DNA of 34,500 nt, from NCBI GenBank assembly GCA_944375725.1, contig CALWAZ010000041.1, positions 1 through 34,500 of the forward strand, read 5' to 3'. Both the position numbers and the translations under genes were made by a program. This stretch comes from an uncultured Merdimonas sp. GTDB lineage: Bacteria > Bacillota > Clostridia > Lachnospirales > Lachnospiraceae. The notes under the pieces were generated by a model that was not told the origin of the DNA, did no database searches, and worked only from the letters and a program-made list of their open reading frames with translations. Positions 18,124 to 32,108 of this stretch are shown one piece after another (positions within the stretch are counted from its first letter, which is position 1; every line of letters begins with the position of its first letter).

Positions 18124-19215
18124 TTAATCCAGATACGTCATCTTCTCCACGCCCTTGATGCCAAGGCCCGGCTCATCAGACACCGTAATCCTCTGCTCAT
18201 CAAATACCGCGCCGCCAAGAATCGGATCCTCACTGCAGAGCACAGGGCCGTCCAGGTCGATCTTGGTGATAATCTTCTTTGCGCAGGCCAGATGAACCGC
18301 CGCGTTTACACTGATCTTTGCTTCCAGCATACAGCCGATCATGCACTCCACGCCGTATACCTCTGCCGCGGACGCAATCTTCAAAGCGTTGTAGAGACCG
18401 CCGCATTTCATCAGCTTGATATTGACCAAATCGGCCGCTCTGGTCTGCATAATGTGAAGAGCATCCTCCGGGGAGAATACACTCTCATCTGCCAGAACCG
18501 GCACATAGGACCGCTCTGTCACATATTTCAGGCCGTCGATGTCGTGAGCCTTGACCGGCTGCTCTACAAATTCGATATCCAGGCCCTTCTCCTGCATCTG
18601 GTTCAGCAGACGGACTGCCTGTTTGGGCTCCCAGCCCTGGTTTGCGTCGATGCGGATGCGGGTATCGTTGCCAATGGCCTGGCGCACTGCGGTCAGTCTG
18701 GCTACATCCAGCTCCGGATGGGCTCCTACCTTGATTTTCAGAGTATCATAGCCCCGGCGTACAGCATCCACCGCGTCCCGGGCCATTTCCTCCGGATCGT
18801 TTACGCTGATGGTAATATCGGTGATGATATGCTTGCGGCTGCCGCCCAGCAGCTTGTAAACCGGAATCTTATACAGCTGTCCGTACAGATCCCAGAGGGC
18901 CATATCCATGGCTGCCTTGGCGCTGGTGTTTTTCACGATACAGCTGTTCAGAGCCTGCATCAGATCCTCGAAATCATCCACGTCCCGGCCCACAACTGTC
19001 TTGATAATATGATCCTGGAGAGCTCCCAAAATCGCTCCTGTGGTATCTCCGGTGATGGCTCCGGTAGGCGGCGCCTCTCCATAGCCTACCGCTCCTGTGT
19101 CGGTATGGACTTCCACAATGATATCCTCTACGCTTGATACAGAGCGCAGCGCCGTCTTAAAGGGCACCCGCAGGGGAACAGAAATCTTCCCCAGTCTCAC
19201 TTCCGTAATCTTCAT
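18124..19215 (-). CDS. dipeptide epimerase (enolase superfamily)
   Basis: The 363-residue enzyme should epimerise the second residue of dipeptides such as L-Ala-D/L-Glu, allowing murein-derived dipeptides to be used. The MLE-subgroup residues are all present: K160 and K162 (LKIKVG), metal ligands D190 (DANQGW), E218 (FVEQP) and D243 (ADES), K267 (NIKLMK), and the dipeptide-contacting aspartate in DLDGP (D322), which separates epimerases of this kind from o-succinylbenzoate synthases. It is the last gene of the DUF819-transglutaminase-Sapep operon, ahead of a strong terminator. Exact dipeptide preference cannot be read. AAAGGAG lies upstream of the ATG at 19215. Confidence 0.93.
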   Translation of the reverse strand: MKITEVRLGKISVPLRVPFKTALRSVSSVEDIIVEVHTDTGAVGYGEAPPTGAITGDTTGAILGALQDHIIKTVVGRDVDDFEDLMQALNSCIVKNTSAKAAMDMALWDLYGQLYKIPVYKLLGGSRKHIITDITISVNDPEEMARDAVDAVRRGYDTLKIKVGAHPELDVARLTAVRQAIGNDTRIRIDANQGWEPKQAVRLLNQMQEKGLDIEFVEQPVKAHDIDGLKYVTERSYVPVLADESVFSPEDALHIMQTRAADLVNIKLMKCGGLYNALKIASAAEVYGVECMIGCMLEAKISVNAAVHLACAKKIITKIDLDGPVLCSEDPILGGAVFDEQRITVSDEPGLGIKGVEKMTYLD

Positions 19216-19335: not shown

Positions 19336-20721
19336 TCAGCGGGCCAGCTCATACATGGCCTCAGCCAGAATCTCCGCATTGTCAATCAGACGGTCAAGCT
19401 CCATATATTCATCCGGCTTGTGCTCCCGCACCTCATCTCCCGGGAAAATAGGGCCAAAAGCCAGCGTATTTGGCATCATTTTGGCGTAGGTTCCGCCTCC
19501 GATGCATTTGGGCGCCGCTTCCTGTCCGGTGCAGCGGGCATACACTTCCAGAAGCTTGCTCACCAGCGGGCTGTCCGGCTCCATATAAAGGCTGGCCTTA
19601 TGATTCAGGGCCAACACCTGGAAACCAGTTTCCGCGAAGGCCGCCTCTACCTTCGGGCCGCAGTCCTCGAAGCTTTTTGTGACCGGATAGCGGTAATTCA
19701 GCTTCACAGAAATCTCACATTCCTCTCCCTGCGCGGTTCCCTGTATTACGCCCAGGTTCATGGTCAGGCCGCCGGACACCTCATCCTCCATGGCAATGCC
19801 AAGAGAAGCGCCGTCACATTCCATTCCAATCTTTTCCGCAAGCAGCTTTACCACCCGGGCCAGATCTCCGGAAAGAGGAAGCCGGTTCAGGAATATCATC
19901 AGCCGTCCGATGGCGTTTTCTCCCTCCCAGGGCGTCCCTCCATGGGCGCTCACTCCGGCGGCTTTGATGCGGACGCCGTCCTCCGTCAGCGCGCAGGTGA
20001 TCTTTTCCTCCTGCATGGCCGTAATCTGTTCCGCCATCTCACAGGAACAGGAGAGACGGGCCCACGCTTCGGCCGGAACAATATTGTGAGCCTCTCCTCC
20101 TTCCAGCTCCAGCAGACGGATCTCTCCGCTCTGGCGGAACCTGCAGGCGAAGGTCTCATTCACCAGCCCCTTTTCTCCGTTGATGACCGGATACTCCCCG
20201 TCCGGCGTAAAGCCCATGACCGGGACCTCCCCGCCATGCTTCAGGTAATATTTCATATCGGCGCTGCCGGTTTCTTCATTCAGGCCGAAGATCACCCGGA
20301 CCCGTCTCTTCAGCTTTACGCCTGATTCCTTCAGAGCCAGCAGGGCATACAGCGCCGCCATGGCAGGGCCTTTGTCATCCATGGTTCCCCGGCCGTAGAT
20401 CCTGCCGTCAGCCACCAGTCCCTCATAGGGCGGAACTGTCCAGCCGTCTCCCTCGGGCACCACATCCAGGTGGCAGAGCACTGCCGTCATCTCATCCCCT
20501 TCGCCGTACTCACACCAGCCCGCCTGATTGTCCATATTGTGGACGGAAAAGCCCAGCTTCCGGGCTGTCTCCAGCATATATTCCAGACACTCCTGCACGG
20601 CTTTTCCATAGGGGAATCCGCTGTCATCCTCCGCGTACACACTGGGAATCCGGATGCATCCCTGCAGATCCGCAATCAGATTTTCCTTCTTTTCTTCTAT
20701 CAGTTTCCGAAACTCCAACAA
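19336..20721 (-). CDS. Sapep family M20 dipeptidase
   Basis: The roughly 461-residue cytosolic zinc peptidase should cleave dipeptides, including D-containing ones known for this family. Motifs are CHLDVVPEGDGW (first metal His, general base Asp), GRGTMDDKGP (metal Asp), GLNEETGS (catalytic Glu and metal Glu), FTPDGEYP and a late EHKPDEYM histidine. An in-frame ATG at 20748 exists, but the AAGGAGG at 20728-20734 favours one of two adjacent TTG codons (20721 or 20718), which avoid overlap with the upstream gene. It follows the transglutaminase-like gene almost without a gap and shares its operon with the epimerase. Confidence 0.9.
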   Translation of the reverse strand: MLEFRKLIEEKKENLIADLQGCIRIPSVYAEDDSGFPYGKAVQECLEYMLETARKLGFSVHNMDNQAGWCEYGEGDEMTAVLCHLDVVPEGDGWTVPPYEGLVADGRIYGRGTMDDKGPAMAALYALLALKESGVKLKRRVRVIFGLNEETGSADMKYYLKHGGEVPVMGFTPDGEYPVINGEKGLVNETFACRFRQSGEIRLLELEGGEAHNIVPAEAWARLSCSCEMAEQITAMQEEKITCALTEDGVRIKAAGVSAHGGTPWEGENAIGRLMIFLNRLPLSGDLARVVKLLAEKIGMECDGASLGIAMEDEVSGGLTMNLGVIQGTAQGEECEISVKLNYRYPVTKSFEDCGPKVEAAFAETGFQVLALNHKASLYMEPDSPLVSKLLEVYARCTGQEAAPKCIGGGTYAKMMPNTLAFGPIFPGDEVREHKPDEYMELDRLIDNAEILAEAMYELAR

Positions 20722-20732
20722 ATCACTCCTCC

Positions 20733-22115
20733 TTACAGCTCCAAGCATTCCAGCACCTGCTTGCTGCGCTCAAATTCCTCATATTTCAGTCCCCGGTCCT
20801 CTGTCTCCATCTCGCCTACCTGATTGTCATAAGGATCCGCCCGCCAGTGCTGCTTTTCTATGGTAAAAGGCTCCTGAAAAGCCTGGTTTGCCGTCATGCG
20901 GAAGGGATCGATATTTCCGAAATAGAATCTGCGCCGTTCCTCATCGCCGGCCCGCACCGCGGCAATTCCGTAGGAAGTATCTGCGTACAGCCAGCCGTAA
21001 GGCGCAATATAAAACTGCACCCAGTCATGGGCCCCGCAGAAATCAGGCTCCGCGGTAAGACCGCTCTGCCAGCGGGCCGGAATTCCGGCGCAGCGGCACA
21101 GGGTCAGAAACAGCAGCGCAAACACGCCGCAGTCTCCGGTAAGATTACGGGCACAGTTGTCCGCGATGTTTTCCAGGCTGAAATAGGAAGGCATAAAAGT
21201 ATACGTCATATGCAGCGTAATAAAATCATAAAATCTCCGGGCCTTTTCCAGAGGATCTTCGGCTCCTTCCGTGAGCTTTGCAGCCAGCTCCCGGATATAG
21301 GGTGTAAACAGAATGTGGGGCGCTTCCTCTCCGGTATAAAAATCCGGCTGTTCCCCTTCTGCTTTCATCTGCTCCGTATCCCGGTACACAGCTCTGCGGA
21401 CATAGGAATACCGGACCGTAAACGGATGGTTTTCCTTCATCTCCTCTTCCCAGCAGACCGTGCGCTGCAGAGCGTCTCCCGGCGCGATTTTTCCGCCCGG
21501 CGTCAGCTTCTCAAATGTGATCTCCGTCTGCTCCGGACACTCTGCCGGAATCGGAAGATGCGCCCGGATCTTCATTCCGGGAACAAAGAGGCTGTCTTTT
21601 ATTCTGAGAGAAGCCTCCACACAGATCCGGCGGGAGGCAGAGCCCTCTTCCTTCATCTTCCGGATACAGGTCTTCAGTTTCCCTGTCTCCCGGGACTCCT
21701 TCCCTGCGCTTTCCACGCCTCTCATGGTGACACCCGCCCGGTCCGCGAAGCCCGGCTCCGTCTTGCAGAGTGTTTCGAAAAAGCGGTCGAAAAACCTCAT
21801 CTCTCCATTCTGGTAAATCCAGCCGATTTTCCCGGAATCCACTCTCTCGTCAAATTCTTCTTCCGTAAAATCCGGAATCTTCTCCCGGACCCGCGCAAGG
21901 GCCTCTTCTCTCGTAAAAGGGAAGTCCCCCGGAAGCCTGAGAATCATCTCCCGCTGGGCCGTCAGGCAGTGCCGGAGCGCTTCCGGCGTCTCCGGGCTCT
22001 GAAGGCGTCTGTCGATCAGCCTCACCGCTCCCTCAAAATCTCCCCAGAGTCTGCGGCGGAGAATATCCTCCGGAAGCCCCATGTGCAGATACCGGAAATT
22101 TTCGTTCACATTCAC
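20733..22115 (-). CDS. transglutaminase-like domain protein
   Basis: The 460-residue protein has an intact transglutaminase-like catalytic triad: C329 in TGDCGVFALL, H363 in GAHDWVQF and D379 in YADTSYG. The N-terminal 200 or so residues are a charged, mainly helical region that I do not recognise, followed by a beta-rich part (about 200-270). No signal peptide is visible, so it is probably cytosolic and may act as an amidase, peptidase or cross-linker on small peptides. The start is GTG, set by GGAGG 7 bases upstream. It lies between DUF819 and the Sapep dipeptidase and may help degrade peptides, but that is inference. Confidence 0.85.
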   Translation of the reverse strand: MNVNENFRYLHMGLPEDILRRRLWGDFEGAVRLIDRRLQSPETPEALRHCLTAQREMILRLPGDFPFTREEALARVREKIPDFTEEEFDERVDSGKIGWIYQNGEMRFFDRFFETLCKTEPGFADRAGVTMRGVESAGKESRETGKLKTCIRKMKEEGSASRRICVEASLRIKDSLFVPGMKIRAHLPIPAECPEQTEITFEKLTPGGKIAPGDALQRTVCWEEEMKENHPFTVRYSYVRRAVYRDTEQMKAEGEQPDFYTGEEAPHILFTPYIRELAAKLTEGAEDPLEKARRFYDFITLHMTYTFMPSYFSLENIADNCARNLTGDCGVFALLFLTLCRCAGIPARWQSGLTAEPDFCGAHDWVQFYIAPYGWLYADTSYGIAAVRAGDEERRRFYFGNIDPFRMTANQAFQEPFTIEKQHWRADPYDNQVGEMETEDRGLKYEEFERSKQVLECLEL

Positions 22116-22271: not shown

Positions 22272-23462
22272 TCATAGGAATACCTGCAACAGCGCGCCCA
22301 TTCCCAATCCGCAGAAATTGCCTATGGCCGCGCCCAGAACTCCCATCAGCACGCCGATACCAGCAAAGGAAGCGTCATAGGCTGTAGCCACGATAGGCGC
22401 GGAAGCGGAACCGCCGATATTTGCCAGGGACGCTGTGGAAACCATGCACAGATCCCAGTGGAAAATCTTTGACATAACAAACATAAGCACCACATGTACC
22501 ACCAGAATAAACACACCGTACACAATCCACATGGGAGCGGATACCAGGTCGGTCAGGCTTGCGGTAGATGCCAGCAGGGATACCACTGCGTACAGATAGA
22601 TGCTGGACAGTTCTTCCACTGCGGGGAGCTTGCCCAAGGGCGTCAGTGCGCAGACAAGACCCAGAACTGTAACAAATACTGTTGTACAGGTGCCTGTATC
22701 AAACATAGAGAGACCAATGCTGGAAAGACCGCTGTTCATGGCTCCTCCCACCATCTGAGACAGAGCAGAAACCAGAAGGGAAAGGCCAATCAGGAAAATC
22801 CAGTCCCCGGAGGTCGCTTTCTTTTTCTGATCTTTCTCAATCTCAGCGTTGGCAGCCTGCGCCACCGCGTCCAGCTTGGAGGTATCTGCCTTTACGGCAT
22901 TATTCCACTTGGAAGCGTAGCGGACCGCAAGAAGCAGAAGGGCAATCCATACGGAATAGCAGACTGTATCCAGAGCCAGCGCGCAGCTGTAGGCACCTGA
23001 GTCCACCGGAAGCGCTTCCATCATGGCCGCCATGTTGGCAGAGCCGCCTACCCAGGAAGCATACAGAGCCGACACAGCAGCCCAGGTCTTCTGTCCGCCG
23101 CCCAGCGTGTTCATAAAGATCGGATAGCCGATAAAGAAGCCGATAGCCAGCGTCAGAGAACAGCCCAGGAAAATGGCAATCATCCGTCCGCCCAGTTTCG
23201 CCAGCTTCCGGAAATCACAGCGCAGCAGCATGACAAAGATCATGGCGTACAGCAGATTGTTCTTCAGAGCACCGTATGCAGCGGATACTCCATCCGAGTT
23301 GTAAAAGCCCAGGGTACAGAACACCATATTCAGCACATAGAGCCATACCAGCGGAGGAACTACATTAAAAATTTTCCACTTGGTATACTTTTCCAGCGCC
23401 AGCAGGCCGCCGGCCAGAAACATCAGAAACGCGATGTAAGTAAAACCGTTTGTAATAACCAT
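22272..23462 (-). CDS. DUF819 (YjcL-like) membrane protein
   Basis: The 396-residue protein has about ten or eleven membrane segments, with one hydrophilic central loop near 185-218 (KADTSKLDAVAQAANAEIEK and on). GGSANMAAM and NIGGSASAPIVATAYD form two matching glycine-rich pseudo-repeats in the two halves, suggesting an inverted-repeat transporter. DUF819 members have no settled substrate. Because the following genes act on peptides, a peptide, dipeptide or amino-acid transporter is plausible. The promoter and a leader terminator lie upstream, and GGAGAATGTT precedes the ATG. It is the first gene of the operon. Confidence 0.85.
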   Translation of the reverse strand: MVITNGFTYIAFLMFLAGGLLALEKYTKWKIFNVVPPLVWLYVLNMVFCTLGFYNSDGVSAAYGALKNNLLYAMIFVMLLRCDFRKLAKLGGRMIAIFLGCSLTLAIGFFIGYPIFMNTLGGGQKTWAAVSALYASWVGGSANMAAMMEALPVDSGAYSCALALDTVCYSVWIALLLLAVRYASKWNNAVKADTSKLDAVAQAANAEIEKDQKKKATSGDWIFLIGLSLLVSALSQMVGGAMNSGLSSIGLSMFDTGTCTTVFVTVLGLVCALTPLGKLPAVEELSSIYLYAVVSLLASTASLTDLVSAPMWIVYGVFILVVHVVLMFVMSKIFHWDLCMVSTASLANIGGSASAPIVATAYDASFAGIGVLMGVLGAAIGNFCGLGMGALLQVFL

Positions 23463-23585
23463 AACATTCTCCTTCGTCCCATAATGTAGTAGTGATTAGA
23501 GCCCCTCTCCAGGGGCTGCGAAAAACAGCTCCACCGGGCCGGCCGTCCACGGTTTTCTGGAAGTTTCTTCCTGCCGGATAAGGGC

Positions 23586-23636
23586 AAAAAAAATCACTTA
23601 AAGAAAGTCCCTTTTCTACTGGCTTTAAGTGATTTT
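23586..23636 (-). terminator. leader terminator (attenuator) before the DUF819 operon
   Basis: On the minus strand AAAATCACTTAAAG and CTTTAAGTGATTTT form a 14-bp perfect stem around a 19-base loop, ending in eight U. It lies between the consensus promoter (about 75 bases after the start site) and the DUF819 ATG 124 bases further on. Transcripts should normally stop here, so control by readthrough is expected. A hairpin without U-run (AGCCCCT/AGGGGCT, 23500-23517) lies beyond it. Confidence 0.75.
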
Positions 23637-23719
23637 CTTTACGGTTTTTTAATAAAAAACAGCATATCCGACAAACAGAAATTGCTTTCCGGCTTAACTT
23701 TTGTGTAAATTTTATAACA

Positions 23720-23748
23720 ATTATACCTATTTTTCCACTGATTGTCAA
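23720..23748 (-). promoter_or_regulatory. consensus sigma-A promoter of the DUF819 operon
   Basis: Minus-strand TTGACA, exactly 17 bases, TATAAT. It is a perfect consensus, yet followed by a terminator before the first gene. The 458-base gap 23463-23920 otherwise holds only this promoter, the leader hairpins and the gltD-distal stem. Confidence 0.9.
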
Positions 23749-23810: not shown

Positions 23811-23859
23811 AGAAAGCCGCATCTGCAGCAGCCCATGACTGCCGCAGATACGGCTTTCT
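23811..23859 (-). terminator. stem-loop after gltD, probable terminator
   Basis: AGAAAGCCG pairs with CGGCTTTCT outside, and ATCTGC with GCAGAT inside, giving a long stem with two mismatches. The U-run after it is poor in both directions, so termination efficiency is uncertain. It lies 60 bases beyond the gltD stop. Confidence 0.5.
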
Positions 23860-23920
23860 CTCCTTCTAAAAGATACCCGCCGCTCTCAGCAGCGGCATCT
23901 CTTCCTATTTATAGCTCAGC

Positions 23921-25414
23921 CTACTGCACCTGCAGATTCGTGTACCCCATCAGGTCCAAATCTACTGCGCAGGCCGCCTCCCGGCCTTCCCGGATAGCCC
24001 ATACCACCAGAGACTGGCCTCTGTGCATATCGCCTGCGGTGAATACACGGTCCACGTTGGTTTTATACTGGCCGGGCTCCGTACTCACATTGGTTCTGGC
24101 ATTGACTTCCACGCCGAAAGCCTTGGTCACGTAATCCTGGCTTCCCAGGAAGCCTGCCGCGATCAGCACCACATCTATGTCCATCGTAAACTCGCTTCCC
24201 TCGATGGGCACCATCATCATGCGGCCTGTCTTCTCATCCTTTTTGCTCTCCAGCCTGCAGCAGATGACCTTTTTCAGGTTTCCGGATTTGTCGCCGACAA
24301 ATTCCTTTACGGTCGTGGTATAAAGCCGCGGGTCCTTGCCGAACAGAGCGATGGCTTCCTCCTGGCCGTAGTCCGTCTTGCAGACTCTGGGCCACTCGGG
24401 CCAGGGATTGTTCTCCGCTCTCGTATCCGGAGCTTTCGGCATCATCTCCAGCTGCACCACAGATTTCGCGCCCAGACGGATAGCGGTTCCCACACAGTCA
24501 TTGCCTGTGTCGCCTCCGCCGATGACCATTACATTCTTTCCCTTTGTGGAAATGAATTTCTTGTCGGCAAAATTGGAATCCAGCAGGCTCTTGGTGGTGG
24601 CCCGCAGGAAATCCACCGCAAAATAGATGCCGTTCAGTTCCCGGCCCGGCGCTTTGATGTCTCTCGGATTGGAAGCGCCGCAGGCCAGGATCACCCGGTC
24701 GTACTCCTTCAGAAGCTCGGCTGCCTTTTTATCCTTACCGATGTCTGTGTTTACTACAAATTCCACGCCTTCCGCTTTCATCATATCGATCTTCCGGTCG
24801 ATGATGTGCTTCTCCAGCTTCATATTCGGAATGCCGTACCGAAGCAGTCCTCCTATCCGGTCAAAGCGCTCGAACACTGTGACAGAATGGCCTCTGTGGT
24901 TCAGCTGATCGGCGGCTGCCAGGCCCGAGGGGCCGCTGCCGACAATAGCAATCTTTTTGCCGGTCCGGTTTTTCGGCGGCTCCGGCACCGCATACCCTTC
25001 CTTGTACGCATTCTCAATGATGGCCAGCTCGTTGCTCTTGGTGCTGACCGGCTCTCCGTTCAGGTTGCAGGTGCAGGCTTTCTCACAAAGCGCCGGGCAG
25101 ACTCTTCCGGTGAATTCCGGAAAGCTGCTGGTCTTCTTGAGACGCTTGTAGGCCTGCTCCCAGTTTCCCATGTACAGCAGATCGTTCCACTCCGGAATCA
25201 GATTCCGCAAAGGACAGCCGGAAGCCATCCCCCCGATCATGACGCCTGCCTGGCAGAACGGCACGCCGCAGTCCATGCAGCGCGCTCCCTGGCGCTGCTG
25301 CTCCTCTTTGGAAAGAGGGGTATGAAATTCATTAAAATGCTTGATTCTCTCTTTCGGAGACTGGGCTTTCTTATCTACCCGGTCATATTCCATAAATCCA
25401 GTCGGTTTTCCCAT
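23921..25414 (-). CDS. gltD: glutamate synthase, small subunit
   Basis: This flavoprotein passes electrons from NADPH to the large subunit, which makes glutamate from glutamine and 2-oxoglutarate. The 497-residue protein has N-terminal [4Fe-4S] cysteines C46, C49, C54, C67 and a second set C106, C110, C114, C116. The FAD motif is AIVGSGPSGLAAAD (about 150-163) and the NADPH motif is VIGGGDTGNDC (near 297). It starts 14 bases after gltB stops, with AGGAGGGGAG between, so the subunits are made together. GltD-like proteins also serve other oxidoreductases, but this pairing fixes its role. Confidence 0.95.
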   Translation of the reverse strand: MGKPTGFMEYDRVDKKAQSPKERIKHFNEFHTPLSKEEQQRQGARCMDCGVPFCQAGVMIGGMASGCPLRNLIPEWNDLLYMGNWEQAYKRLKKTSSFPEFTGRVCPALCEKACTCNLNGEPVSTKSNELAIIENAYKEGYAVPEPPKNRTGKKIAIVGSGPSGLAAADQLNHRGHSVTVFERFDRIGGLLRYGIPNMKLEKHIIDRKIDMMKAEGVEFVVNTDIGKDKKAAELLKEYDRVILACGASNPRDIKAPGRELNGIYFAVDFLRATTKSLLDSNFADKKFISTKGKNVMVIGGGDTGNDCVGTAIRLGAKSVVQLEMMPKAPDTRAENNPWPEWPRVCKTDYGQEEAIALFGKDPRLYTTTVKEFVGDKSGNLKKVICCRLESKKDEKTGRMMMVPIEGSEFTMDIDVVLIAAGFLGSQDYVTKAFGVEVNARTNVSTEPGQYKTNVDRVFTAGDMHRGQSLVVWAIREGREAACAVDLDLMGYTNLQVQ

Positions 25415-31969: not shown

Positions 31970-32062
31970 AGCGCAGTGCTAGGGGAGCCTAAGGCTGAGA
32001 AAACACGGGATGTGTTGACCCTCATTACTTGAACCGGTTAATACCGGCGTAAGGAAGCAGCT
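31970..32062 (+). ncRNA. TPP riboswitch (THI element)
   Basis: The conserved core words occur in order: AGGGGAGCC, GGCTGAGA (31993-32000), GACCC, CTTGAACCGGTTAATACCGG and CGTAAGGAAG. P1 would be TGCT paired with AGCA. Thiamine diphosphate binding should lower thiT expression. After it, AATCC and TCCT (32068-32078) can pair with AGGAGGATT (32096-32104), which hides the thiT ribosome binding site; a weaker U-run also follows, so both translational and transcriptional control are possible. Confidence 0.95.
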
Positions 32063-32108
32063 TTTCGAATCCCCTCCTGTGATATTTTCATACAAAGGAG
32101 GATTTTTT

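Follow-up and report, generated by a model that had tools for sequence, protein, structure and literature searches.

The window, i.e. the whole 34,500-nt stretch of DNA that was analysed, carries on its minus strand an operon whose first gene encodes a DUF819 membrane protein (22272-23462; PF05684, E 6e-126), followed by genes for a transglutaminase-like protein (20733-22115; PF01841), the M20 family dipeptidase PepV (19336-20748; PF01546, and NF005591 with 497 bits at a cut-off of 435) and an enolase-superfamily protein (18124-19215; PF13378/PF02746). The top NCBIfam model for the latter is L-Ala-D/L-Glu epimerase with 257 bits, which is below the cut-off of 500, and judging from these matches the protein is a probable L-Ala-D/L-Glu (dipeptide) epimerase. 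Together the four assignments, with PepV above and the epimerase-like protein below cut-off, back the preliminary description of a peptide operon, whose probable role is the uptake and cleavage of small peptides. DUF819 is listed in PMC8396727 as a CPA/AT-clan family without a transport name and is also mentioned in PMC12671195; the literature searched gave no DUF819 substrate.

The upstream gene on the same strand (23921-25414; ORF list, Pfam Pyr_redox_2/Fer4_20) encodes an oxidoreductase that we name gltD-like, and it ends before the DUF819 operon's own promoter. Two G+C-rich hairpins 3' of this gene (23813-23897, minus strand), detected by the scan and in the sequence, are probably terminators that end the gltD-like transcript and set the DUF819 operon apart.

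The promoter is a perfect match to TTGACA-17-TATAAT on the minus strand, as had been claimed, with the -35 hexamer at 23743-23748 and the -10 hexamer at 23720-23725. It is the single copy in the window, where 0.0075 would be expected from base composition (spacers of 16-18, both strands), and according to the alignments both hexamers are identical and kept at a spacing of 17 in all seven species that carry the leader. Transcription would start near 23713, and the predicted short leader RNA, from the start to the end of the terminator U-run (23586-23713, minus strand), is about 128-129 nt long and more stable than dinucleotide shuffles (z -3.68; 1 of 200 shuffles was equally good). The leader scores 141 bits with R2, our covariance model of the window-type leader, a score that includes this very sequence in the model. 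The U-run ends at 23586, and the terminator thus precedes the first gene by 123 nt, the DUF819 ATG being at 23462 with a conserved RBS, AGGAG, at 23469-23473 (minus strand).

The terminator hairpin (23586-23636, minus strand) was recognized in the sequence, in the predicted fold, of which it is the largest stem, and by RNAalifold. It is A+U-rich and can be read as a 10-bp stem with a tail of eight U or as a 14-bp stem with a tail of four, and hence the terminator itself stands while the count of a 14-bp stem with an eight-U tail does not, four U having been counted twice. It was missed by a simple scan that allowed loops of 3-8 nt, because its apical loop is approximately 20 nt.

Conservation of the leader within the genus and family

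A full DUF819 gene is present in 13 of the 16 genus genomes and, on the basis of DNA searches and alignments, seven of these 13 have the leader; a fourteenth genome (G008) has only a 150-residue DUF819 match at 32% identity. In the six other species with the full gene we saw, by eye, another TTGACA/TATAAT-like promoter near the gene and no such terminator leader. Searching 299 family genomes with R2 gave matches in five, two of which are the genus itself; the other three matches (L127-L129) are not from the genus, resemble ordinary terminators and were rejected.

RNAalifold applied to six distinct leaders (L007 was excluded as a near-duplicate of L006) predicts two hairpins ahead of the terminator. 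The 5' hairpin P1 (23668-23692, minus strand) has the form CCGG-A-AAGCA(AUUUC)UGUUU-G-UCGG with an A/G mismatch, and the middle hairpin P2 (23640-23666, minus strand) the form UAUG-C-UGUUUU / AAAAAC-CGUA. In the genus alignment three of nine pairs in P1, three of ten in P2 and two of 14 in the terminator have changed on both sides, and 92.6% and 88.3% of the cells are paired in P1 and P2, respectively. For the three elements combined this amounts to eight double-sided changes compared to 2.3 in shuffled alignments, none of 500 shuffles reaching eight, where the structure counted was derived from the same sequences. The fraction of paired cells is 90.9% vs 85.2% in shuffles and 45-56% with slid partners; the terminator arm of L006 is one column out of register in this alignment. 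P1, P2 and the terminator are thus conserved with paired changes in seven species, which is what the preliminary description had proposed to look for in relatives. Covariation of this kind would be expected of a riboswitch leader, and it comes from three lineages only (L002-L005; L006/L007; L008) with an RNAalifold covariation term of 0.09 kcal/mol, i.e. no net bonus.

Such an arrangement is most naturally read as attenuation, and the leader was rightly singled out for attention. Based on sequence comparison, the window leader is a putative attenuator conserved at the genus level, and the region 23748-23463 is fairly likely to represent a regulated 5' leader of the DUF819 operon with termination by default and signal-dependent read-through. 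Of the two options put forward previously, attenuation is favoured by the conserved promoter, terminator and hairpins with their paired changes and by the terminator leaders, recognized by eye, that many operons of other Firmicutes have at this position. A riboswitch is possible, although the leader has no Rfam match and falls outside the R1 family described below.

Features of the leader that are not conserved, and known RNA classes

The preliminary description had also pointed to a nine-codon ORF, MLFFIKKP (23639-23665, minus strand), which in the window immediately precedes the terminator, and to a GAAA-GCAA-UUUC tetraloop hairpin. The ORF has no clear ribosome binding site by eye, as had been remarked, and its frame is not kept in the relatives: it is longer in L003 (MLFFHKKTVKK...), shorter in L004 (MLFFR*), has other residues in L006 and lacks an ATG in L008. 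Leader-peptide attenuation through MLFFIKKP is thus unsupported, since the ORF is not conserved, and we regard it as highly improbable in spite of the position of the ORF. The tetraloop hairpin is present in L002, L004 and L005 and broken in L003, L006 and L008. As far as sequence comparison can tell, neither the short ORF nor the tetraloop appears to carry any weight for leader function.

At gathering score, Rfam reports nothing on the leader, in agreement with the earlier failure to assign it to a known riboswitch class; the only match in the window lies elsewhere, a TPP riboswitch at 31971-32072 on the plus strand (67.9 bits). Extending the search of the leader to E 5 gave 13 matches, all far below gathering (the trpB motif, for example, scores 19.3 vs 59 bits), and the sub-threshold microRNA and trpB matches were put down to hairpin composition. 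Lysine, glycine and glutamine riboswitches sense amino acids and some of them work via terminator control; none of these was matched by Rfam in the window or in the loci of 20 relatives. The guanidine-IV riboswitch and its variant Gd4v, which consist of two hairpins joined by a conserved pseudoknot and are proposed to be ON switches (PMC9788692), resemble the window leader in being short and in combining a structured 5' part with a 3' hairpin that also serves as intrinsic terminator. They differ in their conserved pseudoknot, loop-loop pairing being only weakly indicated here, and in the genes that they precede, which are unlike those of the DUF819 operon; nor is there any guanidine riboswitch among the Rfam matches to the leader. 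In the literature searched, which comprised no preprints and few subscription papers, neither the window leader nor the R1 RNA (see below) is described, and the term "alanine riboswitch" does not occur.

Possible mode of action of the leader

By default, RNA polymerase would stop at the terminator, and a leader RNA of roughly 128 nt would be released. Under inducing conditions a metabolite or protein would bind the leader and cause its upstream part either to refold or to be fixed in place, so that termination fails and the operon is transcribed. The signal is likely to be a peptide or an amino acid, given the probable role of the operon in small-peptide uptake and cleavage, and the sense of regulation would likely be ON, as argued below for the R1 leaders.

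Folding of partial transcripts revealed competing pairings before the 3' arm of the terminator is made, and among the window-type leaders these folds gave no consistent support for an antiterminator common to all lineages. A pseudoknot between the P1 loop and the terminator loop was considered and rejected: 4-6 bp can form in all five sequences tested, yet 19-43% of shuffles do as well. Any mechanism beyond the terminator is accordingly our inference, as no shared antiterminator was found and the loop pairing is not above shuffles in any single sequence.

These results bear on the possibility that the leader harbours a constitutive partial terminator that dampens expression or yields a small RNA and does not switch. 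The lack of a consistently demonstrable antiterminator in the window group would fit, as would the dominance of the terminator stem in the predicted fold and the six sister species that manage without the leader. However, P1 and P2 would be superfluous for a plain terminator and are nevertheless conserved with paired changes, and the promoter-to-terminator arrangement is maintained in seven species; we therefore find a constitutive terminator unlikely.

Regulated read-through might also be brought about by an RNA-binding protein, either an antiterminator protein or a CsrA-like protein acting at a UGGAGA loop and the AGGAG sequence. The loop belongs to a hairpin in the read-through mRNA just before the RBS, GCCCC-UGGAGA-GGGGC (23501-23516, minus strand), which is kept in all seven leader-bearing species with an invariant loop and one stem change, in L008; in the counterpart in L037, GUCCC-UGGAGA-GGGAC, the stem is altered yet paired. 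The CsrA pattern consists of one GGA in a hairpin loop and another in the ribosome-binding site, and this arrangement resembles it. Against this, CsrA (PF02599) is encoded in one of the seven leader-bearing genomes (G014) and was not detected in the window's own genome, which is 85% complete, and eight of the nine genomes that encode CsrA are without the leader. A CsrA-regulated leader was rejected on these grounds, and the invariant UGGAGA loop on its G+C stem stands as an observation for which CsrA is an unlikely explanation. By eye, no RAT or ANTAR motif was recognized in the leader, and Rfam had no match at its thresholds. Overall, control by an RNA-binding protein appears quite improbable, and signal-dependent attenuation is the reading that we retain.

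R1, a terminator-linked RNA upstream of related operons

A contig scan for relatives of the DUF819 protein gave 79 loci from the best 80 of 98. By eye, the upstream regions of many relatives in other Firmicutes have leaders with terminators at the equivalent position, and inspection combined with a script indicated that the genes behind them belong to DUF819 or epimerase-like operons. To obtain a seed alignment for a covariance model, R1, we selected by eye eight leaders of distant species that could be aligned, the window group being excluded. Without any preset structure RNAalifold predicts 18 pairs in the seeds, 11 of them changed on both sides, and our own structure has a covariation of 0.564 compared to 0.249 in shuffles. 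R1 forms one long interrupted stem-loop with the closing strands GCUG-C-UUYA...URAA-ACC-CAGC; examples are L047:2342-2399, L045:2316-2376, L036:2227-2287, L080:629-691 and L134:1501-1561.

Applied to 93 sources, the model found 38 matches at E≤5 and 35 at E≤0.01, the eight seeds and near-copies included. In an alignment of 30 members, which was fitted to the structure and hence is biased toward the R1 fold, 92.3% of the cells are paired and covariation is 0.585 vs 0.251 when shuffled and 0.058-0.105 with slid partners. Three matches (L131, L141 and L142) were dropped as no fitting gene start lies downstream, and another three, on the minus strand of L042 (E 0.051), in L069 (E 2.1) and the third in L050 (E 2), were treated as chance.

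The terminator 5' arm begins within the R1 closing strand (CCCAGC) in 39 of 42 kept matches according to a strict script, and when the terminator was allowed to start anywhere in a 14-nt stretch this was the case for 41 of 42 compared to 26.8% of 2000 random positions at the same loci; the 42 matches include near-identical rows, among them those of Peptoniphilus, which stayed in. This count omits L083, L085, L086, L087 and L095, which are near-copies or truncated, and L122, which represents the site already covered by L110. In L108, L050 and L138 we noted, by eye, an overlapping terminator with mismatches. The R1 fold and the terminator compete for one strand, and R1 therefore has the layout of an antitermination ON switch.

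Rfam at gathering score returned only a tRNA (in L075) for the loci of 20 relatives, eight of which carry R1. When thresholds were relaxed, no match was obtained for the R1 leader of L047 and 20 for that of L134, all below gathering scores; microRNA and trpB matches of this kind were again put down to hairpin composition. Taken together, the comparisons make R1 a well-supported candidate for an orphan riboswitch, strongly covarying and terminator-linked and without Rfam match.

R1 was detected in three of 391 class genomes at E 0.01 and, at E 0.05, in 3 of 22 and 13 of 148 genomes of two orders, where three matches look spurious and three genomes (G236, G326 and G128) recur from the class search. 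With R3, an improved R1 covariance model, 40 of 249 genomes in the order of G390 had matches at E 0.01, and none of the 299 genomes of the window's family had any under stricter filters.

Genes downstream of R1 and a candidate signal

Reading of the ORFs suggests that the first genes after R1 encode DUF819, epimerase-like, M20 dipeptidase, alanine dehydrogenase, class-III aminotransferase, CoA-transferase and thiolase proteins, or DUF3870 with a symporter. Among 30 R1 loci grouped by gene, several of which are from one genus, 11 have a symporter (SDF), six an epimerase-like gene, four a dipeptidase and four a methylmalonyl-CoA mutase; two have DUF819, two another transporter and one was unassigned. 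Representatives scored above the NCBIfam cut-off for alanine dehydrogenase (TIGR00518), PepV (NF005591) and CoA-transferase (NF007394). The symporter matches SDF (PF00375), with GltP as the best NCBIfam model, below cut-off. Other Pfam matches are Aminotran_3 (PF00202), BKACE (PF05853), MM_CoA_mutase (PF01642) and DUF3870 (PF12986), and the epimerases belong to the enolase superfamily. The row of genes in L187 comprises, partly from ORF reading, a symporter, aminotransferase, BKACE, DUF3870, mutase, carboxyl transferase and the beta subunit of a Na+-pump decarboxylase.

DUF3870 recurs near R1 (L061, L143-L154, L187-L192), next to alanine dehydrogenase in L061 and next to aminotransferase/BKACE in L146 and L187, for example, and possibly it links the alanine dehydrogenase and aminotransferase/BKACE pathways. 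In L189 two R1 matches (G868:C1:2619764 and 2620234) lie approximately 470 nt apart on the same strand and flank a DUF3870-like gene.

As ligand of R1 we would guess L-alanine or the dipeptide Ala-Glu, which is the simplest guess because epimerase, dipeptidase and alanine dehydrogenase genes follow R1. The symporter/BKACE/mutase clusters fit such a signal less directly, and other amino acids remain candidates. R1 ties together genes for DUF819, epimerase-like proteins, PepV, alanine dehydrogenase, DUF3870, the SDF symporter, class-III aminotransferase, BKACE and methylmalonyl-CoA mutase, and if it binds alanine or a dipeptide functions would be suggested for two DUF families. To our knowledge, an R1 RNA that binds alanine or a dipeptide would be the first of its kind.

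Relationship between the window leader and R1

Like R1, the window leader lies before the first gene of a dipeptide/amino-acid operon, here one with DUF819, and in both a conserved domain is followed directly by a terminator. They differ in that the 3' strand of R1 is the terminator 5' arm, whereas two separate hairpins come ahead of the terminator in the window leader. Could the window leader nevertheless be a diverged R1 member that shares fold and signal with R1? A DUF819 protein with 84% identity (L036) does have an R1 leader at that position, L036 being one of the eight R1 seeds, such that its 61 bits are by construction. Moreover, when the search was confined to the leader region the best R3 place (9.4 bits, E 0.031 in 491 nt, 23665-23616, minus strand) has the look of CUG-UU / AAA-GC-CAG. 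However, the best R1 place in the confined search (4.5 bits, E 0.17 in 136 nt) starts from 23681, i.e. in another register, and the closing-helix pairing CUG-UU/AAA-GC-CAG can be drawn, by eye, in the window but not in L006. The leader was also missed in the wide searches, by R1 in the 34.5 kb window with filters off, by R1 over 93 sources and by R3 over 75 sources, and R3 gave nothing significant in the 16 genus genomes (best E 0.23). Conversely, R2 on the R1 leaders aligns mainly via the terminator (by eye, ten alignments).

Membership of the window leader in R1 was rejected on the R1/R3 scores, and we consider a diverged R1 doubtful. Since the R1/R3 test fails and R2 finds only the genus, we report the two RNAs as analogous, although they may share a common origin. 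It appears rather unlikely that both are branches of a single new, rapidly evolving riboswitch superfamily whose signal is an amino acid or dipeptide (L-alanine and L-Ala-Glu being the first candidates) and which, in gut and other anaerobic Firmicutes, turns on the uptake and cleavage of dipeptides along with alanine dehydrogenase and the aminotransferase/BKACE pathways. Were this so, R1 would be a new orphan riboswitch class. The window leader is in itself a testable attenuator, and its signal would probably reveal the substrate of DUF819.

Other leaders upstream of DUF819 genes

In five loci (L103-L107) the approximately 140 nt ahead of the DUF819 start contain another type of conserved leader, UUCACGCUGGUGACACA ... 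GGGGCUUUGGGAUAGAAAA, with no obvious terminator before the gene. The mean column identity among the five sequences is 65%, and Rfam had no match in L103 and L105. Terminator leaders that are unmatched by R1 and R3 on their strand are present about 250-160 nt upstream of DUF819 in L038, L042 and L044, and by eye L042 and L044 share a pairing of the type GYGG-A-UUUU / AAAA-CC-RGY with the terminator arm.
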